DNA from: an uncultured Gammaproteobacteria bacterium
GTDB taxonomy: Bacteria > Pseudomonadota > Gammaproteobacteria > Pseudomonadales > Pseudohongiellaceae
NCBI GenBank assembly: GCA_913060695.1
Contig: CAJXUA010000012.1
Span: forward strand, 1-64,000
Direction: 5' to 3'
Length of the DNA: 64,000 nucleotides
Of the stretch, positions 15,269-46,231 are shown one piece after another; positions within the stretch are counted from its first letter, which is position 1, and every line of letters begins with the position of its first letter. The position numbers and the translations under genes were made by a program. The notes beneath the pieces are model-generated. The model was not told the origin of the DNA. It worked only from the letters and a program-made list of their open reading frames with translations, and did not search any database.

Positions 15269-15503
15269 AGAATCCTCCGTCTTTAGCATGCATTGGACTC
15301 CAATTTCCGAGCAGACTCAATCACCAACACACGCAGCAAGACACAAACATACTTGTTTGATGCTCATCAACGTTACTGGAGAGTGCGACAACATGACGCA
15401 TTGGAAAGCCACACCGGGGCACCCATAAAGAGGATAATGAACTTGTAGATAGACATTTTATGTAAGATTGTTAGGACACCTCAACGAGACTAAGGGAGTG
15501 CAT

Positions 15504-16787
15504 ATGTTCGATGAAAACAGCGCGTCTCAACGCATTCGAGTTCGGCTTACAAGCGCCCTACTCTCTATTGGCCTTCTCGGCAGCATTAGTGCCATGGCTG
15601 AGCCTATGGATGCAGACTACGCAGCCTTCTTGCAGGCGAGAGGCGAGGCGTCTTGGATAAACGCCAATGCCGAGCACCCCTTAGCTAACGAGGCCTTCCG
15701 GCCAATCCCATCACTGGCGCAATATCCCGCAAGTACAGCCAAGCGAGACCTTGGATTCGCTCTGTTCCACGACACCTCACTCTCACGGGATGGCACGGTG
15801 GCGTGTAATAGCTGCCATATGGGCATGATGGGGGGTACCGATGGCATGAGTATGGCAAGGGGCATCGACGGCGAGCGAGGTCCACGCAACACCCCCACCG
15901 TGTTCAACGCGGCGTTCAATTTTAGGCAATTCTGGGATGGCCGCGCGTTCGATCTAGACACTCAGTCTCTCGAACCTATTAGTAATCCCCTCGAGATGGG
16001 ACACGATCTCAATGCTGTCGTCGCTCAACTCAAGGAAGACCCGCGCTACACAGCTATGTTCGAAGAGGCATATACCGATGGGGTAACTGCCGCGAATCTA
16101 GGCAATGCTCTGTCTCAGCACACCAAAGACATGACGCGCTCAGACTCGGCCTTCAACGACTATCTCAACGATGAGAATAAAGCTTTGCCGGAACAGGCAG
16201 TGCGGGGCAAGTCTCGCTTTAATGCGCTGGGCTGCGTCGCCTGTCATAACGGCATTAATATTGGCGGCAACTCCTATCAGCCCATCGCCAGCTCCTTTAC
16301 CACAGCGCTGCAATACGCCCTGCCAGGCGAGGAAGGCTTAGCGGCACGAAGCGGGCGCGAAGAGGACCGCTTAGTGTTCAAAGTGCCTCAACTGCACAAT
16401 GTCGCGATGACTGCGCCCTATTACCACGACGGCAGTGTGCCTACTTTGAAAGACACGATTCGCAGAATGGGGGCACAGCAGACAGGCCGAATTATCAGCG
16501 ATCAAGATGTAGAAGATATCAACGCCTTTCTCGGCAGCCTAAGCAGTGCCTTCTTCAACGGCATGAACATGCACAATATGACGAACGATGAACTGCAGAG
16601 CGCCGTGCGCGGGCAGATGCCAGACGCCATGGGCAAAGGCCACATGATGCAGGGGCAAGACCATGCGCAGCACATGCAACATATGCAAAACATGAATCAC
16701 TCCGCAGGACAGGGCATGCATCACGCGCCAGCCTCCACAAGTACCGAAGCTAGCCCTGAACCAGCCCATCAACATGGAGAACATTGA
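15504..16787 (+). CDS. diheme cytochrome c peroxidase/MauG-like protein with His/Met-rich tail
   Basis: This is an exported diheme protein: a signal peptide (ending SISAMAEP), a first heme site C101-x-x-C-H105 (CNSCH), a second at C244-x-x-C-H248 (CVACH), and the CCP/MauG core. It probably reduces hydrogen peroxide, or oxidises a partner, in the periplasm. The start is ATG 15504 with GGGAG five bases upstream. The odd part is residues 353-427, a low-complexity tail full of Met and His (HMMQ, HAQHMQHMQNMNH, HQHGEH) that looks like a metal, probably copper, sink. A gene for an unknown secreted protein follows after three bases. Confidence 0.88.
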   Translation: MFDENSASQRIRVRLTSALLSIGLLGSISAMAEPMDADYAAFLQARGEASWINANAEHPLANEAFRPIPSLAQYPASTAKRDLGFALFHDTSLSRDGTVACNSCHMGMMGGTDGMSMARGIDGERGPRNTPTVFNAAFNFRQFWDGRAFDLDTQSLEPISNPLEMGHDLNAVVAQLKEDPRYTAMFEEAYTDGVTAANLGNALSQHTKDMTRSDSAFNDYLNDENKALPEQAVRGKSRFNALGCVACHNGINIGGNSYQPIASSFTTALQYALPGEEGLAARSGREEDRLVFKVPQLHNVAMTAPYYHDGSVPTLKDTIRRMGAQQTGRIISDQDVEDINAFLGSLSSAFFNGMNMHNMTNDELQSAVRGQMPDAMGKGHMMQGQDHAQHMQHMQNMNHSAGQGMHHAPASTSTEASPEPAHQHGEH

Positions 16788-16790
16788 GAG

Positions 16791-17510
16791 ATGAAAAAGC
16801 AATTAGTTATGAAAGGCTGTGATCGTCCCTTTTTAGTTGGTTTGATGCTGTTAGGCTTGGCATTGCCATGTGTCGGCAACGCACAGATTAACGACGCACA
16901 TCACGAAGACTACCAAGCAGCACTGAATGTCGTGGCACAGGGCGAGTCGCGAATTGCACAGGCCATGATGCAGGTACAATCGGGTCAGGTGGCGCATTAT
17001 GATTTTTTGCAGAATGAGCACATCGAGTTAATACGACACTCCCGGGCGCTCGCATGGCCGCCCGGCAGTATCGATGCAAACAAAAAAGATGAACTACGTA
17101 AGAATGCGATAGCCCTACTGGGCTCTGCGGAGTCTCTAGAGTGGGTTATTTCCGATTATTTGCGGGCCATTGCACAGGTGCGTAGTGCCACGAGTAATAC
17201 GCTTGATATTGCGGAGCAAGCAGAACAACAGGCTACGGGTGCACTCAAGGCTGACTTCGAATCACTGCAAGTCGCAACACTGATGTTTATGGCCTCTGCC
17301 TACAAAGAGGAATGGACGCCACTGACACAGGCATTCGACAAGGTGCTCGGCGCGGACATCACAGAACAGACGCGCAGAGAACTTGAATTCCAAAGAGAGA
17401 AGCTAGCAGCTTTCACACCTCTACTCCAAGTACACATGAAAGCATTGCAAGATTCGGATGTAGACGTCCGCGCGGCTAGCCTTCAAGCCTCATACGAAGC
17501 AGCGATCTAG
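16791..17510 (+). CDS. secreted helical protein of unknown function, partner of the diheme peroxidase
   Basis: I do not recognise the family. The 239-residue product has a signal peptide (hydrophobic FLVGLMLLGLALPCVGNAQ) and an almost entirely helical, Glu/Gln/Ala-rich mature part with several His near its front (DAHHEDYQ). It starts three bases after the peroxidase stop and is surely co-transcribed with it, so a role as partner or electron-transfer/assembly factor is a reasonable guess. Its TAG stop is interlaced with that of the convergent TonB receptor through a shared CTAG. Confidence 0.7.
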   Translation: MKKQLVMKGCDRPFLVGLMLLGLALPCVGNAQINDAHHEDYQAALNVVAQGESRIAQAMMQVQSGQVAHYDFLQNEHIELIRHSRALAWPPGSIDANKKDELRKNAIALLGSAESLEWVISDYLRAIAQVRSATSNTLDIAEQAEQQATGALKADFESLQVATLMFMASAYKEEWTPLTQAFDKVLGADITEQTRRELEFQREKLAAFTPLLQVHMKALQDSDVDVRAASLQASYEAAI

Positions 17511-27159: not shown

Positions 27160-28320
27160 ATGAATTCTTCGCAAACAAGTGAGTCAGGGTGCTCGGCCAT
27201 GAAAGGTTTCAGGCTCTCAATTTTTCTGCTGGCCCTGTTTTCCTTATCAGCAATGGCGGACGAGAACACAGCGCTGGCGAAGGAGTATCCTGAGCTGCAA
27301 CAACTGCTGCTAGCCCACGATATTGTGCAGGCGCGCGTCTATGAAGAAATTAGCCTTGCTAATACATCTGACATCGCAGCCATAGGCCAGAGAGTCTTGC
27401 TGGATACTCTTGCAGAACTCAAGGAATCGAAAAACTCACACTACCACTCAGCCGGTGATCATTCGGCAATGTTGGGGCCACATCGCGTGTTTGAAAGTCG
27501 GGCAATTCCTGGCCTGCTGGGAGTTGTCAGGGGAAACTATAACGCCGACCAGGTAAGTAGCGCCTTAGCGGATGTGGGCAACCTACCTCCAGTAGCCGTA
27601 GAGACCTTGCAAAAGGGACGCCAATTTATTGAGTTACTTATTGAGATTTACATCAACCCCGCCTTCGAGGATAAGAAGGCCGCGGTGGCACTTGCAGTAG
27701 AGAGCTATTTGCAGAATGATCGGCTCGCTATCGCCCCCAAGCCGAAGTCCGATGAGTTGTTATCGGACCACGCGTGGGCCTATGCTTTCAAGGCCGGCTT
27801 TCCGCAACTCAGTGGCTTAACCTGGGCATCGCAATGGTTGAAGCTTGGTACGCTGGAACTGTTGGTATCAGAGCCGGATGTAGCATCACGCAATCAAGCC
27901 ATCGCAACCCTATTGGAGCTTTACAATGAGAAAATAAACCGCCTGCATGGCAGTCTGGTTTCTCTGCCCACAGACATCCCTACCAGCCCCGTTATCGCAC
28001 CCGCGTTCTTTGAACTGCATCCGGATGCGGCCTATATCATCGACAATCTGGAATTGTTAAAAGTAGTCATAGGCGACATCCTCGCCTATCCGGAAGTAGC
28101 AGACCGATGGCAGGAAATAGAACTAGCCGTGCAAAATTACACCGACAAAACTAGCAATTTCAGCGACGAAACAGATTATCTGTACTACACGCTGCGAGGT
28201 GGCATCTACAATGCCGGAGGACCTGCCCGGGGTGGCCTAAATCGGCCAGACCGAAACTGGTCACGGGAGCAGTCGGAGAATCCCCACATCAGTATCGGTA
28301 CACAGCCTTCGCCTGATTAG
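27160..28320 (+). CDS. secreted helical protein of unknown family (paralogue A)
   Basis: I do not recognise this family. The 386-residue precursor starts at ATG 27160 (GGTGAAGG just upstream) and has a signal peptide whose hydrophobic part is residues 18-32 (FLLALFSLSAMA, then DE). The rest is predominantly helical. Segments shared with the protein at 31201 are KGRQFIELLIEIYINPAFED (153-171), FPQLSGLTWASQWLKLG (214-230), SPVIAPAFF (276-284) and LRGGIYNAGGPA (345-356), so the two are clear paralogues. A His cluster (HYHSAGDHS, 94-102) falls where the paralogue has a Met/His-rich stretch. It is the first gene of a cassette with a heme/copper monooxygenase-like protein. Confidence 0.7.
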   Translation: MNSSQTSESGCSAMKGFRLSIFLLALFSLSAMADENTALAKEYPELQQLLLAHDIVQARVYEEISLANTSDIAAIGQRVLLDTLAELKESKNSHYHSAGDHSAMLGPHRVFESRAIPGLLGVVRGNYNADQVSSALADVGNLPPVAVETLQKGRQFIELLIEIYINPAFEDKKAAVALAVESYLQNDRLAIAPKPKSDELLSDHAWAYAFKAGFPQLSGLTWASQWLKLGTLELLVSEPDVASRNQAIATLLELYNEKINRLHGSLVSLPTDIPTSPVIAPAFFELHPDAAYIIDNLELLKVVIGDILAYPEVADRWQEIELAVQNYTDKTSNFSDETDYLYYTLRGGIYNAGGPARGGLNRPDRNWSREQSENPHISIGTQPSPD

Positions 28321-28557
28321 CTTTGCTCATCAAATGAGTAGGAGCCAAGAAATCAGCCGTTTTTGCCACAGTGCTTCATTTTGGTGCACAATGCTCGATA
28401 ATCTTGCACATCTAGTCGACAACTCGTAACATTTACACACTTGAAGTACGAGGCTCAAATGAGCATTATATGGAAATAAACTCATACTCATTGAATTTAG
28501 AGTTAGAAATACCCGTTAGTGTATTCAAAATGCCCATCCCAAACGAGGATATGGAAA

Positions 28558-29895
28558 ATGATGTATAAAAAAGTCTTAAAAACGCTAGTAGTTTTTGCAG
28601 CATTCCCAGCACTTAGCAGTGCTCAGGAAGCCGCTCCACACCCCACCTATGCAAAAGAGGTGTCTCGGTTAATTCAGGAGAATTGTCAGAACTGTCACCA
28701 ACCTGGATCAGTCGGGCCCATGTCATTCATGAGCTATGAAGAAGTGCGGCCTTGGGCTCCACTAATTCAGATGAGAGTCGCGAACCGCGAAATGCCCCCC
28801 TATCATTACGATAACGATGTTGGCGTTCAGCACCTCCAAAATGACTGGCGTTTGTCACAAGACGAAATCGATACAATTGTAGATTGGGTTAACGCCGGCT
28901 CGCCTTTGGGCAATCCGGAAGATCTACCGCAGCCCAAGATGTACCCAGCTGTGGACGAATGGCGTTTGGCAGGTGAACTCGGACTGCCCGATCACACAAT
29001 TAAATCTGAAGCTTGGGATGTCCCTGCGAATGGTCAAGACCTGTGGTGGAAGCCAATTGTAGATTCCGGCATCGACGAGAGTCGTTGCATTAAGGCTGTA
29101 GAGACACGACCTTCGGCAGCAGCCATAGGCTCAACTCACCATGCCAACTCGCACTTCAAGGTTCTCGACGCAAATGGCGAATGGGTAGATGGCGACCGTC
29201 TGTCCGAATTTGCGATCGGCAAACTCGGTGAGAAAGTACCAAAAGGCGCTTGCCGAAAAGTACCGGCGAATTCAAAAGTTGAATGGGAGATTCACTATTT
29301 CCCCAACGGCGTTGCTGTGCCAAATGATCAAGTGACCATAGGCATCTGGTACCACGACGAAGAAGATGGGTTTGTCGAAGAAGAAAGCTACCGCCAAGAC
29401 TTGCGCGCCTATACACTCTCTGCCTCAACAGATGATTATATGATTGCCCCCCATGGCAAGCTTATGACACAGGGATTCAGGTCTTTCGACCATCCGGTTC
29501 GTATCGACAGCTGGCAGCCTCATATGCATCTGCGTGGTGTCGCAATGTCATTGGAAGTGTTTTATCCGGAAACGGGCAGAACAGAAGTATTAAGTCAGGC
29601 TTCCAATTGGACCTCCGCCTGGAACCACAGCCACACCTATGAAGAAGGTTACCAGCCCCTTATTCCTGCGGGCGCGACCCTTATCATGACTGGATGGTAT
29701 GACAACACTGAAAACAACCCCATGAATCCAGATCCGGATCAATGGGTGGGCTCAGGTCAGCGTACGACTGACGAGATGTCACATGCGTGGATTGCTGTTT
29801 CCCACCTCGATGAAGAAGCCTATCAGGCCCTTCTTACCGAGCGCAAAGAGCGAGACAATAGCAGCGTTGCCAGCTTGGACAGTGGAGCTCAATAA
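28558..29895 (+). CDS. heme c / copper type II monooxygenase-like protein (two-domain)
   Basis: The 445-residue exported protein has a signal peptide (ending LSSAQ), one heme c site C43-x-x-C-H47 (CQNCH) in a small cytochrome domain, and then a two-lobed region like peptidylglycine/dopamine monooxygenases. Candidate copper ligands are H194, H195 and H199 in HHANSH, H246 in EIHYFPNG, and H322 and H324 in PHMHLRG. The start is ATG 28558 with GAGGA eight bases upstream. A fused heme could deliver electrons that ascorbate supplies in animal enzymes. The substrate is unknown. The next gene overlaps by one base (TAATG). A three-domain relative is at 36794. Confidence 0.82.
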   Translation: MMYKKVLKTLVVFAAFPALSSAQEAAPHPTYAKEVSRLIQENCQNCHQPGSVGPMSFMSYEEVRPWAPLIQMRVANREMPPYHYDNDVGVQHLQNDWRLSQDEIDTIVDWVNAGSPLGNPEDLPQPKMYPAVDEWRLAGELGLPDHTIKSEAWDVPANGQDLWWKPIVDSGIDESRCIKAVETRPSAAAIGSTHHANSHFKVLDANGEWVDGDRLSEFAIGKLGEKVPKGACRKVPANSKVEWEIHYFPNGVAVPNDQVTIGIWYHDEEDGFVEEESYRQDLRAYTLSASTDDYMIAPHGKLMTQGFRSFDHPVRIDSWQPHMHLRGVAMSLEVFYPETGRTEVLSQASNWTSAWNHSHTYEEGYQPLIPAGATLIMTGWYDNTENNPMNPDPDQWVGSGQRTTDEMSHAWIAVSHLDEEAYQALLTERKERDNSSVASLDSGAQ

Positions 29896-30812
29896 TGGTT
29901 TGTTTGAAAGTTTCTAGACTATTGTTACCAATGCTGGCGGGGCTGCTTATAGCAGCCCCCCTGCATGCTCAAATACCAGAACGGTTCCGCGATTATCCCT
30001 TGGCGACTCGCGGAACGACTGGTGAAATAGTGGCCCCTATGTTTAATGGCTGGATTGCCAACGAAGATGGGTCGACAACCATGATCTTTGGTTTCGCCAA
30101 TCAGAATAGAAAGGCGACCGTGGATGTTCCGCTAGGGCCCAATAACAAGTTGGAACCAGCCCAATTTCAAGGAGCACAGCCTACTCATTTTCCCGTATAC
30201 AGCAGACGTGGATTCGTTGGTATTCAGGAACGAGGCGCCTTTGGAGTAGTTGTGCCAGCAGACATGGCAGGCACCGAAGTTATCTGGACGCTAACATCTG
30301 GCGGTAACACTTACTCAATACCAGGCCGCGCCACATCAGCTGCCTATGAGTTAAGTGCTGGCATATCCGCTGCAGGCTCTTTGAGGCCTGCTATTAGATT
30401 CAGCGAGAATGGACCTGAGTCCGTTAATGAAGTGGGTATCTATGCAGAGCCTAAAACTGTCAAAGTCGGGCAGCCACTTACGCTTTCTGCGCTGATGCAG
30501 GATCGAGGGGAGCGTGACGGTTATGCAGACGTTTCGCCCTATTACGATCTTGGCACTTTTTGGGTTATGCATCAGGGCCCAGCTGAGCCGGAAATAGAAA
30601 CGCCGGAGATTCCTGGAAGTGTGCGCGCGGAAAACAATCCAAGCGATCCAAACATTAATGAATGGACCGAGGTTTCAACTCAGGTGACCTTCCCAGAGCC
30701 TGGGAATTACATAATCCGCCTTAGAGTAGATAATTTCGAGGCTCCAGATAGCCAATTCGATAATGTCTGTTGTTATTCCAACGCTTACTTCCCGGTAACC
30801 GTTAATCCTTAA
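29895..30812 (+). CDS. secreted protein with Ig-like C-terminal part, partner of the heme/copper protein
   Basis: I do not recognise the family. The 305-residue precursor has a signal peptide (LLLPMLAGLLIAAPLHAQ) and a beta-rich mature part. The C-terminal half (about 190-305) reads like an Ig/CARDB fold, with VKVGQPLTLSALMQDRG and EPGNYIIRLRVDNFEAPDS, and an adjacent cysteine pair (CCYSN) near residue 293. GGAG precedes the ATG, which shares its A with the stop of the upstream gene, so coupling to the monooxygenase-like gene is tight. A role as structural or substrate-presenting partner is inference. Confidence 0.7.
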   Translation: MVCLKVSRLLLPMLAGLLIAAPLHAQIPERFRDYPLATRGTTGEIVAPMFNGWIANEDGSTTMIFGFANQNRKATVDVPLGPNNKLEPAQFQGAQPTHFPVYSRRGFVGIQERGAFGVVVPADMAGTEVIWTLTSGGNTYSIPGRATSAAYELSAGISAAGSLRPAIRFSENGPESVNEVGIYAEPKTVKVGQPLTLSALMQDRGERDGYADVSPYYDLGTFWVMHQGPAEPEIETPEIPGSVRAENNPSDPNINEWTEVSTQVTFPEPGNYIIRLRVDNFEAPDSQFDNVCCYSNAYFPVTVNP

Positions 30813-30821
30813 ACCTTGGGT

Positions 30822-30853
30822 AATGTGCAAGCAGCAATCGCTGCTTGCACATT
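30822..30853 (+). terminator. intrinsic terminator of the heme/copper operon
   Basis: A perfect 13-base stem (AATGTGCAAGCAG with CTGCTTGCACATT) and a six-base loop begin ten bases after the stop at 30812, followed by GTTCTTTGTG. It separates this pair from paralogue B. Confidence 0.75.
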
Positions 30854-31200
30854 GTTCTTTGTGTCCCTTCCTAACACTTGGCCTGCTCATCTTCCGCTTT
30901 GACATGTTGTGACATCCAATCGACCGACCTAACAAGGAACGGCGATCAGATCCTCGTGAAGTTCTACTACCTATTCCAACGCTAGATTCGAGAATACTAG
31001 CCTTGTACCAAGCGCTAGTGATCTATCGAATTGGTTCTGGCCTTCAGGGAAATCGCGAAACTCAGGAGTGCGATGGAACCTGCCAAGGGATGCGTTTATA
31101 CTATTTTCACATCCCGCAATCGGGATCAACAAATAGATTGGCTCTCCACCAGCCTTAACTAGGTAAACGGTATAAATAGAACCAATCGAGGAATTGGAAC
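30854..31200. other. intergenic region upstream of paralogue B
   Basis: No gene is supported here. TGACAT occurs as a direct repeat at 30900-30905 and 30910-30915. TATAAAT at 31171 is a candidate -10, and GAGG at 31189-31192 is the ribosome site of the next gene. Paralogue B therefore probably has its own promoter. Confidence 0.4.
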
Positions 31201-32385
31201 ATGAAAAACAAACTGAATCGTAAGCCCAAGCCGGTCGCAAGAAAGACCTTGCTGGCCTCTGCCATGGTAGCTGCCTACCTCTTTACCAGTGCTCTGATGG
31301 CACAGGAAGCCACCCAGATACAACTGCAGTATCCGCAGGTCGCGGACCTGTTTAACGCCTTCGACGTCACCCAAGCTAAATCCTTTGAGGAAATTGCTGC
31401 AATCAATGCTAATCCGGCGACGCAACAGGCTCAGAATGAACTACAAATGAGCCTGAACAAGCAGGCCAAAATGACCATGAGCCAGATGATGGCCTCTGCC
31501 ATGATGTCGCATGGCGGCGACATGCCCATGGGCATGAGCAATGGCCCGCACCACAATCTGGAGGTCGAGGCACGAGTCAGACTTATGGAAATGATGCGCG
31601 GCAATCACAGCCACGAAGCGGCGGAAGCAGCCTTCGAGGACAGCTCTGCCATAAATCCGCACACTGCGGAGGTTTTCAAACGCGGCAGAAACTTCGAGGA
31701 AAGACTATTTGTTATCTACATCGATGATTCGATCGAAGACAAACGCGCCGCCGTCACCGAAGCTATCTACGACTATCTTAGCGACGATCAACATTCCGTA
31801 GCCAGTGCACCGAAGGAGAGTGATTATCTGCTGGAGCACGACCAGGCTAATGGGCTGAAATCGGCGTTTCCACTGTTGAGCGGCTTCCTGTGGACACAGC
31901 AATGGCTGCAACTCGCCGCGTTGGAGGCGGTCATCCTGCAAGGTTTGGACAGCCAGTTCAACGGCGGGGTAAATATAGCGCTTGAGCGCTTCTGGAATAA
32001 GGCGGGTACCTCCGGTGGTATGACCATGTTCCCCGCGCCTAGCGAACTGCCAATGGCGCCGGCTATCGCGCCTGACCTGTACAGCCAGTCACCCGAGGCT
32101 GCCATCATCCTGGACAATCTGAACCTGCTGGAAACCGTCGTCGCCGATATCCTTGCCTTCCCGAATGCAGAGAATCAGTACGAGTTAATGGATCAGGCTG
32201 TCGCGTTCTTTACCAACAAGGCTAGCAACAATGCAGAATCGGTGGACTATCTGCGCTTCGCGCTGCGTGGCGGTATCTACAATCAGGGTGGACCAGCGGT
32301 CGGCGAATTGATGCAATCAGAGCGAAACCGTGCCCGCGAAGCTATGAACATGCAACACACTATGATCATGTCATCTCCACAATAA
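31201..32385 (+). CDS. secreted helical protein of unknown family with Met/His-rich insert (paralogue B)
   Basis: This 394-residue precursor is a paralogue of the protein at 27160. Matching segments are QYPQVADLFNAFDVTQAKSF (43-62), RGRNFEERLFVIYIDDSIED (161-180), FPLLSGFLWTQQWLQL (223-238), APAIAPDLY (286-294) and LRFALRGGIYNQGGPA (351-366). Its signal peptide has a long basic front (KNKLNRKPKPVARK). Residues 91-118 are packed with Met and His (MTMSQMMASAMMSHGGDM), and another Met/His run is at the C-terminus, which suggests copper binding. It is the last gene of the repeat-bounded cassette. The family is unknown to me. Confidence 0.7.
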   Translation: MKNKLNRKPKPVARKTLLASAMVAAYLFTSALMAQEATQIQLQYPQVADLFNAFDVTQAKSFEEIAAINANPATQQAQNELQMSLNKQAKMTMSQMMASAMMSHGGDMPMGMSNGPHHNLEVEARVRLMEMMRGNHSHEAAEAAFEDSSAINPHTAEVFKRGRNFEERLFVIYIDDSIEDKRAAVTEAIYDYLSDDQHSVASAPKESDYLLEHDQANGLKSAFPLLSGFLWTQQWLQLAALEAVILQGLDSQFNGGVNIALERFWNKAGTSGGMTMFPAPSELPMAPAIAPDLYSQSPEAAIILDNLNLLETVVADILAFPNAENQYELMDQAVAFFTNKASNNAESVDYLRFALRGGIYNQGGPAVGELMQSERNRAREAMNMQHTMIMSSPQ

Positions 32386-36525: not shown

Positions 36526-36793
36526 ACGTCTAATCTCCGGAAGGGTTAAGAACCTGAAGGAAAATCACGAAACTCAGTGTAAGGAAAAGCTGCTGTCATG
36601 AATAGTGGGTTTTTGACTGCATTTGTGCCCCCGAACATTTCCAAAACTGGCTTCTTGAATGCGTTTACACACGAACTATCTAGGACTATAGTTGCTCTGA
36701 TCAGCATACCTTAATGTTTGCGCTGTCTTTTCGGTAAGCTTATTCGAAAACAGACGTCTAAAAATGACGCAGAATAATAAAAAGGAGTTGTTC

Positions 36794-38533
36794 ATGAGAA
36801 TTAAGCACTGGAAGTCCCTTGCTACGGGCTTATTGGCCACACTGGCCTACGTCAGCCCCACACAAGCAGCAGATCCCATTGGCAACTTCGCCTTACTGGA
36901 TGTTAAGGGCGATTTTCACCAACTCAACAAGTATGGCTATCAAGACGCGCTGGTGATCGTTGCGCAGGCAAACGGTTGCGAAGCCAACTACGAAGACAAC
37001 TTCAAATACAAATTACTCGAAACTGACTATAAGAACGCCAACATCAGCTACCTAATGCTGAATATTGCGGGCGAGAGCCGTGATGCGGTGCGCCAGGAAG
37101 CCGAGACCTTCGACTACGAGTGGCCAATGCTGATCGACAGCTCGCAGCTCGTAGCGGAATCCCTTGGCATCACTAAGGCCGGAGAAGTCGTTATCATCGA
37201 CCCTCAGCGCATGCAGATACTCTATCGCGGTCCTGTTCAGTCAGGCGCCCGCGCCAATGACCCAGTCCGCATGAAGATAGACACCGCACTCGAGACCGCA
37301 TTGACCGGAGATACGCGTAGCGCTGAAACCATCGCCATGGCTGCCGACGGCTGTGAAGTTGCGTTTCCTGGTAAGCAAATGCATGCGTCTAGCGCGCCTG
37401 ACTACGTCAACGACATTGCCCCAATCCTGAAAGAGCAATGCGTCGACTGTCACCGCAAAGGTGGTATCGCTCCTTTCGCAATGGACAGCCATCAAATGGT
37501 CATGGGTTGGTCGACAATGATGCGCGAAACTCTCATGACCAAGCGCATGCCTCCCGCGCAGGTAGACCCCGATATTAAACACTTCCAGAATGCTCGATAT
37601 ATCAGCGATGAAGACTTGCAAACACTTGTGCATTGGATCGATGCCGGCGCACCGCGCGGCGACAATATGGTCGAGCCTTTGGCCGGCCTTACCTTTCAGG
37701 AAGGCTGGGATCTCGGCGAGCCAGACTTAGTGGTCTATGCGGAAGACTTCGTAGTCCCTGCCACTGGCGTAATCGATTACCGCTACCCCATCATCGACCT
37801 GCCCTTCGAGGACGACGTTTGGGTGAAGGCCGTGCAGTTTGTGCCACAAGAGCGCTCTGTAGTGCACCACATGATCGCTAGCATCGTAGAGCCACAATAC
37901 AGCCGCGAGCTCGAGGCCGAGGAGCGTGGTGAGGTGCGTTTCCTAGAGGGTTACGCTCCGGGTAAAGAGGCTGCTACCGTATTCCCAGAAGGCACCGGCG
38001 TGCTTATCCCCAAGGGCTATAAGATTCGCCTAGACTCTCACTACACGACTATGGGTAAAGAAGTGCGTGATCGCACAGCAATCGGCATCTACTTATCAGA
38101 CGAAGTGCCAGAGCATGAATTCCGTACCTATCGCCTGTCCCACGAAGGGCAGAACTTGGTAATTCCTGCTGGAGAGATGGATCACCGTATGTATGCGAGC
38201 TACACCTTCGATAAGGAAGTTACGCTGTTCGCATTCCGCCCCCATATGCACACTCGTGGCAAAGACATGCGCTTCAAGGTGATCTACCCCGATCACAGCT
38301 CTGAAGACCTCATCAATGTCGCGAACTACAATTTTAACTGGCAGCCAACCTATCGCCTCACTGACCCGCTGGTAATTCCAGCGGGCTCGCGCGTAGTGAT
38401 TGACGGTGCCTTCGATAATTCTGAGTTCAATCCAGGCGCCGTTGACCCTAGCGTTGATTCCTTAGGTGGCTTACAGACTTGGGATGAAATGTTCGCGGGT
38501 TATTTAACCTACACCTATAACGACGAGATGTAA
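36794..38533 (+). CDS. redoxin - heme c - copper type II monooxygenase-like protein (three-domain)
   Basis: The 579-residue exported protein starts at ATG 36794 (AAGGAG seven bases upstream) with a signal peptide ending PTQAAD. Residues about 25-160 are a thioredoxin-fold redoxin domain with a lone Cys (QANGCEAN) and no CxxC. A heme c site follows at C216-x-x-C-H220 (CVDCH). The rest is the PHM-like copper region with H358/H359 (VVHHMIAS), H416 (DSHYTTMG) and H484/H486 (PHMHTRG). It shares its last two domains with the protein at 28558. It is divergent from the PQQ dehydrogenase across a 268-base gap. The reaction is unknown. Confidence 0.82.
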   Translation: MRIKHWKSLATGLLATLAYVSPTQAADPIGNFALLDVKGDFHQLNKYGYQDALVIVAQANGCEANYEDNFKYKLLETDYKNANISYLMLNIAGESRDAVRQEAETFDYEWPMLIDSSQLVAESLGITKAGEVVIIDPQRMQILYRGPVQSGARANDPVRMKIDTALETALTGDTRSAETIAMAADGCEVAFPGKQMHASSAPDYVNDIAPILKEQCVDCHRKGGIAPFAMDSHQMVMGWSTMMRETLMTKRMPPAQVDPDIKHFQNARYISDEDLQTLVHWIDAGAPRGDNMVEPLAGLTFQEGWDLGEPDLVVYAEDFVVPATGVIDYRYPIIDLPFEDDVWVKAVQFVPQERSVVHHMIASIVEPQYSRELEAEERGEVRFLEGYAPGKEAATVFPEGTGVLIPKGYKIRLDSHYTTMGKEVRDRTAIGIYLSDEVPEHEFRTYRLSHEGQNLVIPAGEMDHRMYASYTFDKEVTLFAFRPHMHTRGKDMRFKVIYPDHSSEDLINVANYNFNWQPTYRLTDPLVIPAGSRVVIDGAFDNSEFNPGAVDPSVDSLGGLQTWDEMFAGYLTYTYNDEM

Positions 38534-40263: not shown

Positions 40264-40623
40264 ATGTTTAAACGTTATTCTCTTAAGGCTTTTGCCTTGT
40301 TTGCACTGCTTCTGAGCGCACAATTTGCCAGCGCCGACGTCAGCGGTAACTGGATTTTCGCCGTGACTATAATGGATCAAACCGGTAATCCACAGGTCAC
40401 AATGGCGCAAGATGGCGCTGTACTGACAGGTCATTACAACGGCCAACTAGGCAACTCCGACTTCAAGGGAACGGTAAACGGCGATGACTTCCAATTCGTA
40501 TTGGCAAGTGAAGCTGGCTCAGTAACCTACAAAGGCACTTTGCAAGCAGACGGGACTATCAAGGGTTCATTAGACGCAGCGGGCATGGCGCAAGGCACCT
40601 TCACTGCTAAGAAAGCAGACTAA
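40264..40623 (+). CDS. small secreted beta-rich protein
   Basis: This 119-residue precursor has a signal peptide (ending AQFASAD) and a mature part of about 95 residues made of repeated short strands: GNWIFAVTI, VTMAQDGAVLTGHYNG, FKGTVNGDDFQFVL and VTYKGTLQADGTIKGSLD. The look is a small lipocalin-like barrel seen in many uncharacterised secreted proteins. GAGG lies before the ATG. Its last 17 bases overlap the convergent kinase gene. Confidence 0.75.
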   Translation: MFKRYSLKAFALFALLLSAQFASADVSGNWIFAVTIMDQTGNPQVTMAQDGAVLTGHYNGQLGNSDFKGTVNGDDFQFVLASEAGSVTYKGTLQADGTIKGSLDAAGMAQGTFTAKKAD

Positions 40624-42058
40624 AGCTCGATCTTGTATCCGACCCCATAGGTCGAGACGATCCATTCTTTACTTTCGGCAGTCGCGCAGTGAATCTAGTT
40701 AGTGCGGTACTTGATTCGACTTTGACCTCGCCATCGTGGGCCTCGATAACCGATTTGACGATCGCGAGGCCTAGCCCTGCCCCTTCGCTATTGCGTGCTC
40801 GTGACGGATCGATACGATAGAAACGATCGAAAATGCTGGCGAGATGTTTCGGGGCAATCACAGGTCCGCAATTCTCCACCGTAATCGAGGCGCTCTCGGA
40901 ATCTTGCGCCAGAATAACATTCACGACGGCGTTTTTTGGCGAGTGATAAAGCGCATTGGAGAGCAAATTCGTGAATGCGCGGCGCAGCAGATCGCGATCG
41001 CCCTGTACTAGAACGCTCTTCGGATTGACCGCGAGAGTAACACCTCGCTCATCGGCAAACGCATCGAAGAATTCGAACAGTGCCTGAAACTCATCCTGCA
41101 GGTCGATAGGCGTGCTGCTGAGTTTGATCAAGCCGTTCTCGCTCTTGGCGAGCCACAGCATATCGTTCACCATCTTGTTCAAGCGTTCCTGCTCTTCTAA
41201 AACGGAGTAAAGCAGCTCGCGATAGTCCGCATCGCTGCGCGCCTTCGACAAACCCACCTGAGTCTGCGTAATCATATTCGTTAAGGGCGTGCGCAGCTCA
41301 TGGGCGATATCATCAGAAAAATGCGAGAGTTTACTGAAGCCCACCTCGAGCTGCTCGATCATCTGATTGAAAGACAGCACCAAGTCCTGCAGTTCGATGG
41401 GCACGGCGATCGCGTCTAGGCGAGTGTCTAGTTTATTGGTTTGAATGGCGCGCACACGGTGGCTGACTCCGCGCAGAGGGCGCAGACCTTGGTACACGCC
41501 AACCCATGCCGCCAACAGAGTAAGCACGCCAGCGCCGAGTATGATTAACCAAAGGCTCTGCTGAAAAGAATCTAAGAATTCCATATGGAACTCCATATCG
41601 ATAGCACTGGTGATCTGATAGTAAACACCCGCTATCGAACTCGCGACTACCACGCCACGATAGGTCTTGCTGTCGATCGTCCACAACTCCAAGTTTTCCG
41701 CGTTGACAGTCGCAGCTGGAGAAACGCTAGGGAGTACGAAAGAAAAATCCAAACCGGCGGAACTAAATAAAATGGCACCTGCCCCATCTTTGACTTCATA
41801 GAAAACATCATGGTGACCAGAGATCGCGGAGGAAAGGCTCGCAGGCATCGAGACGAAGTCACCATTTTCATGCGCTAGTGCGTGCTCTATAGAGTCCACC
41901 ATCACGCGCAGCTCGTCGGCATCCTGTTCGATAAAATGCCGCTCTACAGTACTGAGCACCAAGCGACTAATCAGCAAAAGGCTAAGCCCGATGGCGAGCA
42001 TCACGAATAGCATTACGCGCAGCGATAGGGACAGTGGCCGCTTGAGCTTAGGCTTCAT
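40607..42058 (-). CDS. copS: heavy-metal sensor histidine kinase (CusS/CopS type)
   Basis: This 483-residue inner-membrane kinase has two transmembrane helices (about 13-36 and 168-190), a periplasmic sensor loop, a HAMP domain, the phospho-acceptor H253 in [20 protein letters not shown] (the form typical of CusS/IrlB heavy-metal kinases) and a C-terminal ATPase domain with [12 protein letters not shown]. It overlaps the response regulator gene by 11 bases. The copper genes on the other side of the regulator make Cu the likely signal. Confidence 0.9.
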
Positions 42059-42737
42059 CGACTTGCTCCAACTCTAGCTTATAGCCCATGCCACGCACGG
42101 TGTGTATTAGCTTCGGCTCGAATTCATCGTCGATCTTGGAGCGCAGCCGACGGATGGCGACATCGATGACATTGGTGTCGCTGTCGAAGTTCATATCCCA
42201 CACTTGCGAGGCGATGATCGAGCGTGGCAACACTTCGCCCTGGCGCCGCATCAATAGCTCCAACAAGCAGAATTCCTTGTGACTAAGATTGATACGCTTG
42301 CCCGCACGAGTAACGCGGCGCTTGAGCAAGTTGACCTCGAGATCGGCCACCTGCAGCTCGTCTTGCGCAACAGGGGCTTGCGTGCGCCTTAGGAGGCTAC
42401 GCACCCGGGCCAACACCTCCACGAAGGCGAAGGGCTTGATGAGATAGTCGTCTGCCCCGAGCTCCAGCCCCTTAACGCGGTCATCGACGCTGTCGCGCGC
42501 AGTGAGGAACAGCACCGGAGTCGTGTTCTTCGCCTCGCGCAGGGACTGCAAGATGCGCCAGCCATCCACGTCGGGCAGCATGACGTCTAGGATGATGAGG
42601 TCGAAACTCTCCGTCATGGCCAAATGATGACCATCGAGTCCGTTGCGCGCTAGGCTCACGGCAAAGCCGGCCTCGGTAAGGCCCTGGCGCAGATAATCCG
42701 CGGTCTTCGTCTCGTCCTCTACCACCAATAAGCGCAT
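42048..42737 (-). CDS. copR: heavy-metal response regulator (CusR/CopR type)
   Basis: This 229-residue OmpR-family regulator has phospho-acceptor D51 ([14 protein letters not shown]), K101 (IKPFAF) and a winged-helix domain ending [13 protein letters not shown]. It is divergent from the multicopper oxidase gene copA, its expected target. Heavy-metal type regulators of this kind induce periplasmic copper resistance genes. Confidence 0.9.
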
Positions 42738-42895: not shown

Positions 42896-44782
42896 ATGCA
42901 CAAACGACCACCGCAGCCACCTTCCCAGTCCCGTCGGCAATTGCTGCAGAGCCTAATACTGGGGGGCGTCGCAAGCGCCCTGCCTTCTACAACAATAGGC
43001 GCGCAGTCTAACACCATCGCCGATGCCGCGCGGGGCACTGCGCCTATAATTCATGGGCCAGTGGTAGACCTAGTGGTCGAGCAGGCGCGGGTGAATTTCA
43101 CAGGGCAGTCACGCATCGCCACCACGATCAACGGCTCTCTTCCCGCGCCGACCCTGAAGTTTCACGAGGGCGACGAGGTCACTATTCGCGTCACCAATCG
43201 CCTACAGGTGCAAACCTCGATTCACTGGCACGGCATCATCCTGCCCTTCCAAATGGATGGCGTGCCGAGCATCAGCTTCGACGGCATCCCTCCTGGCGAG
43301 ACCTTCACCTATCGCTTCAAGCTGGAGCAGAGCGGCACCTATTGGTACCACTCCCACAGCGGTTTTCAGGAGATGACGGGGATGTATGGCGCCCTGATCA
43401 TCGAGCCGAGAGCGGGCGAAGCGTATGAAGTAGAGCGCGACTACATCGTGCAATTGTCCGATTGGACCGATGAAGAGCCGATGCGCGTGTTCAATAAACT
43501 GAAGATTCAAAGCGACATGTACAACTTCAATCAACCGACAGTTGGAGACTTCTTCGCAGATGTCGCCAATGGCGGTATCGGCTTGGCCATGGACAAGCGT
43601 CGCATGTGGAATCAGATGCGGATGAACCCATCGGATCTCGCCGACCTGTCTGCGGACACGCTTACTTTTCTGATGAACGGCAGCCCTGCAGGTGCGAACT
43701 GGACCGCGATCTTCAAGCCGGGGGAGCGGGTACGCCTGCGGATCATTAACGCCTCCAGTAATACGATATTCGACGTACGCATACCAGGCCTACCCATGCA
43801 AGTAGTGCAAGCGGATGGCCAAAACGTAAAAGCCATACAAGTGGATGAGTTCCGCTTCGGTCCAGGCGAGACCTACGATGTGATCGTAGAGCCCAGCGCT
43901 GACGCCTACACCATCTTCGCCCAAAGCATGGACCGCAGTGGCTACGTGCGCGGGACTCTGGCAGTAAGCGCGGACCTAGAGGCCGAAGTCCCTAAGGTCG
44001 ATACACTCGAGCAATTGAGCATGACAGACATGATGGGCGACATGGGTGCAATGGCGGGCATGGACCACAGCGCTCATGCGGCACCAGCAGTTGCAGCCGT
44101 TGACCATAGCGCCCATGATACTTCCGTCGCAGCGGCAGTAGATCACAGTGCTCATGCAGCGCCAATTGCAGCTGTGGATCACAGCGCACACGCGGCGTCC
44201 ACTACAACAGTCGATCATAGCGGCCACAACATGGCTGTAGATCCTCTCGCCCTGCCGTCCAAGACCGTACGCCACGCCAGCACCGAGTATGGTGCCACTG
44301 TCGATGCCCGCATCGACACGCCTCGAACCAACCTCGACGATCCGGGCGTTGGTCTGCGCAACAATGGCCGACGCGTGCTGACCCTTGCCGACCTGCGCTC
44401 GCTAGAGCCATTAGATAACTCGAGGACACCAAGCCGCGAGATAGAACTGCACCTCACCGGCAATATGGAACGTTATAGTTGGTCATTCGATGGCTTGGAG
44501 TTCGGCGATAGCACTCCAGTGCACATGCGCAAAGACGAGTTGGTCCGCATCATATTGCAGAACGACACGATGATGACTCATCCGATGCATCTACATGGCA
44601 TGTGGAGCGACATAGAGAACGAGAACGGAGAGTTGCTCTCACGCCAGCACACGATTCTGGTGCACCCGGCCCAGCGTATTAGTTTTCTCGCCACCCCAAG
44701 AGACGTCGGTCAATGGGCTTGGCACTGCCACCTGATGTTCCATATGGACGCGGGGATGTTCCGCAAGGTGATCGTGTCATGA
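42896..44782 (+). CDS. copA: copper-resistance multicopper oxidase
   Basis: This periplasmic laccase-like enzyme oxidises Cu(I) and binds excess copper. The 628-residue precursor has a Tat signal (R13-R14 in QSRRQLLQSLILGG) and the four copper motifs: HWHGIILPFQMDGVP, YWYHSHSGFQEMTG, HPMHLHGMW and WAWHCHLMFHMDAGMF. Between the second and third cupredoxin domains is a Met/His region (MTDMMGDMGAMAGMDH) followed by five DHSAH/DHSGH repeats spanning residues 390-444, a copper-binding insert. It overlaps copB by four bases (ATGA). Confidence 0.95.
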   Translation: MHKRPPQPPSQSRRQLLQSLILGGVASALPSTTIGAQSNTIADAARGTAPIIHGPVVDLVVEQARVNFTGQSRIATTINGSLPAPTLKFHEGDEVTIRVTNRLQVQTSIHWHGIILPFQMDGVPSISFDGIPPGETFTYRFKLEQSGTYWYHSHSGFQEMTGMYGALIIEPRAGEAYEVERDYIVQLSDWTDEEPMRVFNKLKIQSDMYNFNQPTVGDFFADVANGGIGLAMDKRRMWNQMRMNPSDLADLSADTLTFLMNGSPAGANWTAIFKPGERVRLRIINASSNTIFDVRIPGLPMQVVQADGQNVKAIQVDEFRFGPGETYDVIVEPSADAYTIFAQSMDRSGYVRGTLAVSADLEAEVPKVDTLEQLSMTDMMGDMGAMAGMDHSAHAAPAVAAVDHSAHDTSVAAAVDHSAHAAPIAAVDHSAHAASTTTVDHSGHNMAVDPLALPSKTVRHASTEYGATVDARIDTPRTNLDDPGVGLRNNGRRVLTLADLRSLEPLDNSRTPSREIELHLTGNMERYSWSFDGLEFGDSTPVHMRKDELVRIILQNDTMMTHPMHLHGMWSDIENENGELLSRQHTILVHPAQRISFLATPRDVGQWAWHCHLMFHMDAGMFRKVIVS

Positions 44783-45624
44783 AGCGTTTATTACTCGCCA
44801 CAGCACTCCTGTTCTCTACCAGCGTAGCCTTTGCACAAGATGGTCACGACCATGAGGCGATGGACCACAGCACGATGCCTATGGACTCGGACACTGCGCC
44901 AGCAGATGCACGAGACCCTCACGCCTACTCAGGAGGCTTTACCCGTACCGAGGGACCCTACGCATTGAACAATGCCGAGCATGGCATGCACCACATCTCA
45001 GAGCCTATTCTGTCGATTCTAGGCGATCACTTCGAATACACCCCGGACTCGAACACTAGCAACTACGATATGCAGGCATGGTATGGCACTAGCTTCAACC
45101 GCTTCATCATCAAGTCCGAGGGCAGCCTCGCGCAGCACGGCGAGTATGAGAATCAAACCGACCTGCTCTGGGGACGTGCGTTTTCTGCGTTTTGGGACTC
45201 GCAGCTTGGGCTAAGGATAGATTCAACAAGCGAGGGCAAGGACCGACAATGGCTGGCGGCCGGAATCCAGGGTTTAGCGCCCTACTGGTTTGAGCTCGAT
45301 GCCACCGCCTATCTCGGCACCCAGGGGCAAAGCGAAGTCGTCTTCAACTCCGAATACGAGATGTTACTGACCCAGCGGCTCATCTTGCAGCCGCGCTTTG
45401 AGCTCACCCTGCGTGACAAAGACGACCCGGCCAACTTATTGGGCAGCGGCTTGGCGAATGCTTCATTCGGGCTGCGACTACGCTATGAGTTCTCGCGGCA
45501 GTTTGCCCCGTTTATAGGCGTTGAGACCGAAAAACGCTTCGGAGACACTGCCGACCTCCTAAGCAGATCTGGCGAAAATATTAGCGAATCGCGCTACTTT
45601 ACCGGTATTCGCTTCTGGTTCTAG
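44779..45624 (+). CDS. copB: copper-resistance outer-membrane protein CopB
   Basis: This 281-residue protein starts at ATG 44779, overlapping the copA stop. It has a signal peptide (ending VAFAQDG), a short His/Met-rich copper-binding front (HDHEAMDHSTMPMDSD) and the CopB beta-barrel, including LLWGRAFSAFWDSQLGLRID and a terminal Phe (GIRFWF). CopB sits in the outer membrane and works with CopA to sequester copper. Confidence 0.94.
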   Translation: MKRLLLATALLFSTSVAFAQDGHDHEAMDHSTMPMDSDTAPADARDPHAYSGGFTRTEGPYALNNAEHGMHHISEPILSILGDHFEYTPDSNTSNYDMQAWYGTSFNRFIIKSEGSLAQHGEYENQTDLLWGRAFSAFWDSQLGLRIDSTSEGKDRQWLAAGIQGLAPYWFELDATAYLGTQGQSEVVFNSEYEMLLTQRLILQPRFELTLRDKDDPANLLGSGLANASFGLRLRYEFSRQFAPFIGVETEKRFGDTADLLSRSGENISESRYFTGIRFWF

Positions 45625-45706
45625 AGCCAATTCAAGCACTTAGGCGACCAATCCCACTGAGAGTCAGATACTCGCGGCCTAAAGAAAAAAGAATTTATCG
45701 TCGCTA

Positions 45707-45737
45707 TTGACCTATGTCTAAGACATAGGTGTAGCCT
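45707..45737 (+). promoter_or_regulatory. MerR-type operator and long-spacer promoter
   Basis: A perfect dyad, ACCTATGTCT and AGACATAGGT with one central base, spans 45710-45730. It lies between -35 TTGACC (45707-45712) and -10 TAGCCT (45732-45737) with a 19-base spacer, the hallmark of MerR-activated promoters. The arm sequence differs from the CueR consensus (ACCTTCC). It should drive the merR-ATPase operon. Confidence 0.85.
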
Positions 45738-45802
45738 TGCATCATTGACCAGAATTGATGGACTAGCGAAGCTCTCGTTTAGGTCCTCAAGGAGAGATGA
45801 GC

Positions 45803-46231
45803 ATGCGCGTGAAAGAAGTTGCCGAGAGATTAGGTGTCACTGCCGACACCGTCAGGTTCTATACTCGAATTCGACTACTGAACCCGAACACCAACCCCCA
45901 TAACCAATACAAAGAATATTCTCACGCCGATGTCGAGCGCCTGAAGTTTGTAGTCGCCGCTCGCTCACTCGGGTTCACCGTGGAAGATATCAGCACCATC
46001 ATCGCGAAGGCAGAGGATCATCAGTCCCCCTGCCCGACCGTGCGCCAAATTATCGAAAAGCGTTTAGAAGAAACCGAGCGGCAATTCCAGGACCTGATCG
46101 CGCTGCGTGCCCGCATGAGCGCTGCGATCGCGCAATGGGAAGACACACCAGATCGCGTTCCGAATGGACACATGATCTGCCACATGATCGAAAGTTTTGC
46201 GGGAGGATTTAGCGATGACACAGAAAAATGA
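45803..46231 (+). CDS. MerR-family metal-responsive regulator of the copper ATPase
   Basis: This 142-residue regulator has an N-terminal MerR helix-turn-helix ([20 protein letters not shown]), a dimerisation coiled coil and a C-terminal metal site that differs from CueR. Instead of the CueR two-Cys loop it has one Cys after the linker ([11 protein letters not shown]) and another in [11 protein letters not shown] prefer ATG 45803, with AAGGAG eight bases upstream, over ATG 45797, which is only two bases from it. It overlaps the ATPase gene by 17 bases. Confidence 0.88.

Follow-up and report, generated by a model that had tools for sequence, protein, structure and literature searches.

Two related exported proteins, paralogues A and B, may be copper-handling partners that hold, pass or buffer copper for exported haem-PHM copper oxidases in a recurring gene cassette, a reading that we favour tentatively and draw from the sequence of a 64,000-nucleotide stretch of DNA (the window) and of related loci. 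The locus described here would be one copy of this exported oxidation cassette. The haem-PHM, a protein with haem c and a PHM/DBH fold, would act as a type II copper monooxygenase with its own haem c as the electron inlet replacing ascorbate, and its Ig-like partner would be produced together with it. Copper would be held by a flexible Met/His loop and tail in B-type members of the A/B family, or by a His motif in A-type members, and would be passed to, or buffered for, haem-PHM; A- and B-types would be alternatives for one slot, and some B-types would perhaps serve a CueO-like oxidase. If true, such a dedicated partner family would provide a handle on the copper and electron supply of exported copper oxidases and would single out, among the numerous haem-PHM copies, those that belong to working cassettes. 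A/B are also a candidate family of copper-handling proteins without a Pfam or NCBIfam match. We know of no substrate for the haem-PHM cassettes, and no description of a haem-c-fused bacterial PHM or of the A/B family was found in the accessible portions of the open-licence literature.

The ORF listing contained all four ORFs claimed earlier between positions 27160 and 32385, all on the forward strand. Signal-peptide-like N-termini were recognized by eye in each of the four proteins, consistent with the earlier proposal that all are exported. Paralogue A (27160..28320, +, 386 aa) belongs to a clade of nine A-type rows. The haem-PHM ORF was listed at 28519-29895 with a GTG start (458 aa), and the ATG at 28558, which has a GAGGA-type ribosome site upstream, yields 445 aa, the listed ORF length of two close orthologues (L035 and L036; a third, L033, was listed at 472). 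Judged from the sequence, the ATG is the likelier start, and the feature was placed at 28558..29895 (+) from the ORF, the upstream sequence, the AlphaFold model and the Foldseek and VIA matches. The Ig/PKD-like ORF (29895..30812, +; PF00801 19.9 bits, below the cut-off of 23.5) overlaps haem-PHM by 1 base, and in 35 of 39 PKD rows, among which some loci occur twice, the relative lies no more than 300 bp from haem-PHM in the same orientation. Downstream lies a hairpin with an 18-pair stem and a short T-rich tail (30818..30857, +; RNA fold −27.2 kcal/mol, z −5.97), a possible terminator of the haem-PHM/PKD unit from a scan that overall found 6 sites vs 5.8 expected by chance. Paralogue B (31201..32385, +, 394 aa), a B-type member, follows.

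The tight coupling proposed in the earlier note applies to the haem-PHM/Ig-like pair with its 1-base overlap and does not extend to A and B, which lie apart from the pair. A four-gene operon in the window appears to be ruled out because of the hairpin 3' of PKD and the 237 bases separating A from the likelier start of haem-PHM. A, the haem-PHM/Ig-like pair and B look like three separate transcription units, and B is probably its own unit in the window. The hairpin cuts B off from the enzyme in the window, an observation that counts against the copper-partner reading. An Rfam search of the window returned nothing at gathering score.

The middle protein had been described as a haem c/PHM-like copper protein, and both the fold search and the candidate copper ligands of its relatives agreed with this description. 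The haem-PHM model matched DBH and PHM in Foldseek (E 3.4e-11 and 1.3e-10, respectively), and VIA aligned it with DBH 4zel (Z 19.8, 269 aligned, 3.5 Å) and PHM 6ala (Z 18.0, 243 aligned, 3.4 Å), the next unrelated row standing at Z 8.8. The haem c motif CxxCH (residues 56-60 in 458-aa numbering; 28684..28698, +) was kept in 59/59 relatives. All six candidate copper ligands (H207, H208, H259, H335, H337 and M420 in the same numbering; 29137..29778, +) were also kept in 59/59, arranged as HH, H, HxH and M; this count covers haem-PHM of at least 400 aa and redoxin-PHM of at least 450 aa, with identical sequences removed and near-identical ones retained, and excludes later-fetched stretches. The same six residues were invariant in a 25-row alignment. 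We take the HH...H...HxH...M series to be the PHM copper ligand order, matched residue to residue. Haem-PHM shares this series and the fold with DBH/PHM and differs from them in its CxxCH haem c region, its bacterial origin and its lack of a match to the Pfam PHM models, which failed to match in 25/25 members scanned; in haem-PHM itself, Pfam matched the haem part alone. PDB sequence-profile searches with haem-PHM missed DBH/PHM, and the relation was found by fold search only. Cu2_monooxygen (PF01082) had no match in the genome of the window, a blank that is uninformative because the control genomes likewise had none. The same genome held 17 haem-PHM family matches.

A redoxin + haem c + PHM protein with a full candidate ligand set is encoded at 36764..38533 (+; PF03712 34.4 bits, cut-off 23), 4.4 kb from B, and is 29% identical to haem-PHM. 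In 13 of 16 redoxin-haem-PHM relatives, K/R and N take the place of HxH. A bolder proposal, which we regard as doubtful, is that A/B would constitute a new exported copper metallochaperone class of unmatched fold, dedicated to copper monooxygenases that carry a fused haem c. The complete machine would then comprise the catalytic haem-PHM and a redoxin-haem-PHM that would have lost the O2-activating copper site and may be a redox/copper relay, and the three His of the A-type and the alternating Met of the B-type would do the same job.

A and B, previously called paralogues of no recognised family, proved to be genuine paralogues that are identical at 129 of 369 aligned positions (35%; E 8e-74) and share both motifs quoted for them, and no family was recognised in Pfam, NCBIfam, PHROGs, PDB sequences or solved folds. 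Known families were rejected, all Pfam, NCBIfam and PHROGs rows being below cut-off or at E >0.05; the PDB sequence search gave no row at E up to 10, and the fold searches gave none at E ≤ 0.001 (Foldseek) or Z ≥ 5 (VIA). The family matches no solved fold and so has no structural copper-protein precedent, which counts against the copper-partner reading; an unlisted fold is possible. The AlphaFold model of B (pLDDT 79.7) is all-helical apart from two isolated bridge residues, and falls below pLDDT 50 at residues 101-111 and 368-394. Remote plasmid homologues aside, the members found all came from a single bacterial family, which is mostly uncultured and largely marine, and related genomes with the same cassettes are named Pseudohongiella or Gammaproteobacteria. 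Viral contigs searched with B yielded no relative, and a class sample yielded no A/B match in 368 genomes besides G000, with at most five candidates scored per genome.

Co-occurrence of the family with haem-PHM, suggested as a check in the earlier note, was found within genomes and across genomes. A/B rows of at least 330 aa numbered 106, of which 90 were unique and 57 remained below 85% identity. PHM genes lay within 6 kb of 36 of these 57 non-redundant members (L082, which also has the SoxC/DUF5916 context, was counted here), so most of the family does sit near a copper or haem protein, and no known family of another role was matched. Fifteen members had a SoxC (sulfite dehydrogenase)/DUF5916 context with no PHM within 6 kb, five were unscored, and L098 showed neither context inside that distance; in L098 and the unscored L122, haem-PHM was just past the 6-kb limit. 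That many B genes lie away from PHM, with 15/57 members in the SoxC/DUF5916 context, counts against the copper-partner reading. Linkage to haem-PHM was seen in 17 of the 20 first-fetched A/B loci, and in the window's own genome a PHM gene lay no more than 6 kb from each of the three separate A/B loci; positions satisfying this distance make up at most about 6% of the genome. The 80 named loci are the best 80 of 132, with B-types near window B over-represented and some contigs duplicating other fetched stretches.

Across 137 genomes, taken by inference to be the same for both counts, 94 had both A/B and a close haem-PHM, 2 had A/B only, 7 had haem-PHM only and 34 had neither. Close was defined as E ≤ 1e-200, a limit chosen after viewing the match list, from which two genomes without a haem-PHM match were absent. 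At E ≤ 1e-60, haem-PHM was present in 115/137 genomes (every one of the 96 A/B-positive genomes and 19 A/B-negative ones), and the tight match between A/B and haem-PHM therefore needs the close subset. The seven genomes with haem-PHM and no A/B, and the two with the reverse, also count against the copper-partner reading. Among the genomes listed for genus g4, a close haem-PHM was present in 7/7 A/B-positive vs 0/8 A/B-negative genomes, and the slot behind haem-PHM and PKD was filled in all seven, by a B-type in four and an A-type in three. Record L129, from Pseudohongiella sp. O18, likewise encodes haem-PHM, PKD and a B-type gene one after another.

Paralogue B's Met/His stretch and paralogue A's His cluster, which had been placed at the same site, do share one alignment position and are clade-wide features. 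The A-type motif SHYHSAGDH (residues 93-101; 27436..27462, +) retained SHYH in 9/9 non-redundant A-type rows. The Met/His-rich loop of B (residues 86-116; 31456..31548, +) belongs to a region with 28.1% Met vs 3.0% in the core across 48 B-type rows. The B-type alignment also revealed a C-terminal tail with MxMxHxMxM (residues 373-394; 32317..32382, +), a second Met/His motif overlooked in the earlier note; MxMxH was present in the tail of 42/48 B-type rows. Met pairs in B-types were enriched at spacings of 2, 4 and 6 and depleted at 1, 3 and 7, and the loops drifted in sequence with their Met composition kept. In the B subclade adjoining close haem-PHM orthologues (L034, L037, L038, L041 and L091), the tail motif was eroded in 4/5, with 0-2 Met+His in the tails of L034, L038, L041 and L091, and the loop was Met/His-poor in 3/5, with 2-4 Met+His in L034, L041 and L091. 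Eroded Met motifs in a B clade beside haem-PHM count against the copper-partner reading.

These data bear on a different role for A/B, as structural or substrate-binding subunits of an oxidase complex in which the helical core does the work and the Met/His segments are secondary. Conservation of A/B peaks in the core (H213, W231, W235, E242, K267, D305, N306, D316 and R356-GG) and not in the loop, the Met/His motifs erode while the gene still adjoins haem-PHM, and the g4 genes sit directly behind haem-PHM and PKD, all of which suits a subunit. However, the Met composition that B-types keep despite drift, with its alternating spacing, would be needless for a mere linker, and B genes occur in the non-PHM context too. 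We consider the subunit role unlikely.

The copper-partner reading must also accommodate the SoxC/DUF5916 loci, among whose B genes window B nests in the tree. A molybdopterin oxidoreductase adjoins many B genes. SoxC is a molybdenum enzyme, and the molybdenum enzyme at L065 scored 516.8 bits against SoxC (cut-off 420) and 28.6 bits against MsrP (cut-off 207). A multicopper oxidase adjoins 8/90 unique A/B members and 6 of the 15 SoxC/DUF5916 members (L039, L040, L065, L066, L086 and L088), and the one copy tested scored best as CueO. Both contexts contain a c-type cytochrome, which is haem-PHM itself in one and a small cytochrome c next to SoxC in the other.

The Met-rich B and its frequent molybdopterin oxidoreductase neighbour would fit a methionine sink that is oxidised by reactive species of oxygen or chlorine generated near the oxidase and then repaired, for which the available part of one source provides a precedent in MrpX/BcrX with the molybdenum methionine sulfoxide reductase system MsrPQ (PMC8315932). 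That precedent resembles the B loci in having a Met-rich protein near a molybdenum oxidoreductase, but MrpX/BcrX are described there as a peptide rich in Met or a protein with MXKDX repeats, whereas the B-types are folded proteins of about 390 aa whose neighbour, in the locus tested, is an enzyme of SoxC type. The neighbouring enzyme tested is SoxC by score, with MsrP far below its cut-off; the A-type has His instead of Met; and His is retained within the fixed MxMxHxMxM spacing of the tail. We consider a sink improbable. We give similarly little credence to A/B serving a process common to the SoxC/DUF5916 and PHM loci, such as exported haem protein assembly or anchoring, with copper incidental: the c-type cytochrome of both contexts would be accounted for, but the Met/His motifs and the multicopper oxidase neighbour would be left unexplained. 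Inherited synteny with no functional link is very improbable, since, although the members (remote plasmid homologues aside) share a single bacterial family and loci related to one another are not independent, PHM and non-PHM contexts changed at least five times on the A/B tree, arrangements differ among loci (co-directional after PKD, convergent, or A then redoxin-PHM), and A/B and close haem-PHM are jointly present or absent in genus g4.

Among known copper proteins, PCuAC (AccA) resembles A/B in being exported and, in some members, in carrying a flexible His/Met-rich tail, but PCuAC is cupredoxin-like with HXnMX21/22HXM, according to the accessible text (PMC13006917), whereas the model of B is helical and shows no cupredoxin-like fold. 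As described in the same portion of that source, the AccA tail binds Cu(II) and yet is dispensable in cells (PMC13006917), and this dispensability counts against the copper-partner reading of A/B. CopM of Synechocystis is likewise exported and Met/His-rich, and copper binding is reported for CopM, which, in the part of the paper available, has two DUF305 domains with an HH motif (PMC4335983); A and B have none, and no Pfam row for DUF305 appeared in either at E up to 1. A phylum sample queried with the Gemmatirosa protein gave no match in 298 other genomes. A plasmid search yielded one remote A/B homologue, and two more when that homologue was used as the query; the C-termini of the remote homologues in Gemmatirosa and Methylobacterium are Met/His- or Met-rich too.

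All four open reading frames of the cassette described in the earlier note were present, as placed there, in an ORF listing of the window: A (27160-28320, 386 aa), haem-PHM, a haem c protein with a PHM/DBH fold, an Ig-like gene (29895-30812) and B (31201-32385, 394 aa). A and B shared 35% identity over 369 aligned positions, and neither matched anything above noise in Pfam, NCBIfam or PHROGs. The 458-aa haem-PHM contained CxxCH, with Pfam matches to cytochrome c only, all below cut-off; the Ig-like protein had a PKD match, also below cut-off. The ATG at 28558 is the likelier haem-PHM start, judged by a ribosome-site-like sequence upstream, and the stop overlapped the Ig-like gene start by 1 base. 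A hairpin of 18 pairs (fold -27.2 kcal/mol, z -5.97) was located 3' of the Ig-like gene, so B is probably transcribed separately from the haem-PHM/Ig-like unit. The terminator case rests on stem length, since the scan found 6 terminator-like sites versus 5.8 in shuffles and the T-rich tail behind this hairpin was short.

A structure model of haem-PHM was built from 25 relatives (mean pLDDT 77.0). Foldseek matched it to human dopamine beta-hydroxylase (E 3.4e-11) and PHM (E 1.3e-10); VIA yielded Z 19.8 (269 aligned, 3.5 A) and Z 18.0 (243 aligned, 3.4 A), respectively, and the best unrelated fold after these reached Z 8.8. The haem motif and six candidate ligands (HH, H, HxH, M) were intact in 59 of 59 haem-PHM of at least 400 aa, the window's copy included. 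The fold and candidate ligands are well supported, and the enzyme activity is putative.

A related protein, redoxin-haem-PHM, was found with many cassettes. The HxH pair was lost in 13 of the 16 examined (L031, L034, L046-L049, L099, L106, L107, L109-L111 and L117), replaced by K or R, and N, with CxxCH kept; these 13 either shared a stretch with A/B and haem-PHM or lay immediately after A. Three of them carried a further ligand change, at the HH or at the third His, and L046 lacked the Met ligand. All ligands were kept in three (the window's 36764-38533, L081 and L082). In PHM, HxH belongs to the O2-activating copper; by this analogy, the 13 proteins would have lost or changed their catalysis.

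The A/B family had four members in the window's own genome. Of 137 genomes from the bacterial family, 96 carried it (4 of 8 genera); it was absent from the 368 other genomes of the class-wide sample, with at most 5 candidates per genome scored. At E <= 1e-200, a limit picked after the match list was seen, A/B and haem-PHM were both present in 94 genomes and both absent in 34; seven had haem-PHM only (G731, G739, G740, G742, G744, G764, G784) and two A/B only (G758, 73% complete; G793, 65% complete), and a Fisher test on these counts ignores kinship among the genomes. At 1e-60, haem-PHM was found in 115 of 137, comprising all 96 A/B-positive and 19 A/B-negative genomes. In genus g4, all seven A/B-positive genomes carried close haem-PHM in the order haem-PHM, PKD, A/B, and the eight listed A/B-negative genomes carried just more distant haem-PHM (E 1e-100 to 1e-106). 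The slot behind PKD held a B-type gene in G032, G710, G714 and G717, and an A-type gene followed by redoxin-PHM in G016, G715 and G716. That two diverged paralogues occupy one slot is the best indication of a shared function of A and B for haem-PHM.

A/B occurred with haem-PHM or redoxin-PHM in 17 of an initial 20 stretches (without: L039, L040, L042), and PHM was in the stretch for 39 of 80 named loci (best 80 of 132), many stretches being bounded by contig ends. In a tree, the 57 non-redundant members split into 9 A-clade and 48 B-clade proteins; 36 had PHM within 6 kb, 15 were in a SoxC/DUF5916 context, one had neither and five were unscored. Context changed at least 5 times on the tree, gain and loss being indistinguishable. 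In the window's genome, 3 of 3 A/B loci were within 6 kb of PHM, where at most ~6% of the genome would qualify (17 PHM matches). Haem-PHM family matches numbered 17 in this 3.7-Mb genome and 28 in G018. Association of A/B with haem-PHM is clear; the chemistry of the partnership we infer.

Across 48 B-type rows, the loop contained 28.1% Met and 6.3% His (core: 3.0% and 1.8%) and the tail 17.6% Met, with MxMxH in 42 of 48 tails; in both loop and tail, Met-pair spacings of 2, 4 and 6 were above shuffles and 1, 3 and 7 below, with z-values overstated as the rows are kin. All nine A-type rows had SHYH and at least 3 loop His. The B model was helical (mean pLDDT 79.7), fell under 50 in the Met/His loop (101-111) and tail (368-394), and had no match among solved folds by Foldseek or VIA. 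A remote B homologue in Gemmatirosa (28% identity, 56% of B covered, E 4e-13) led in turn to homologues (E 8e-15 and 2e-13) carried by two Methylobacterium plasmids, and one of these homologues matched A1 by profile comparison (probability 93.9, E 1.5e-7); the Gemmatirosa and M. fujisawaense homologues had a Met/His- or Met-rich C-terminal region. An outer-membrane beta-barrel-like gene, so named from weak Pfam matches below cut-off, adjoined both (L131 8842-9660; L136 9340-10248).

Motifs, copper-enzyme neighbours and export are consistent with copper handling by A and B, and we hold it as a tentative reading, a little short of even confidence. Counting against it, Met+His numbered just 2-4 in the loop of L034, L041 and L091 and 0-2 in the tail of L034, L038, L041 and L091, and these four motif-poor B genes adjoin close haem-PHM orthologues; L117, of a different B subclade, likewise had just 4 in the loop. 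This erosion in one B clade, and the SoxC context of some B genes, allow for a structural role; a structural or substrate role we consider less likely than copper handling. The molybdopterin neighbor at L065, the one locus tested, was SoxC by TIGR04555 (516.8 bits, cut-off 420), and its multicopper oxidase scored best with CueO (456 bits, below the model cut-off of 525). Among 39 loci viewed, L064, L065 and similar loci had a block of TPR protein, SoxC, cytochrome c, DUF5916 and B-type gene, followed by CueO-like oxidase and YeeE/YedE-type genes or by YdbH-like and YdbL-like genes.

Elsewhere in the window, a gene judged di-haem peroxidase-like by eye from two CxxCH motifs (15468-16787), with a strongly Met/His-rich C-terminus, was followed by a gene for a protein of unknown type (16791-17510); the pair is possibly another copper-linked haem system. 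A copper resistance-like set recognized by eye (42896-48479) comprised a multicopper oxidase with Met/His repeats, a CopB-like protein and a copper P-type ATPase, and a two-component pair (40607-42737), also assigned by eye, was on the opposite strand.
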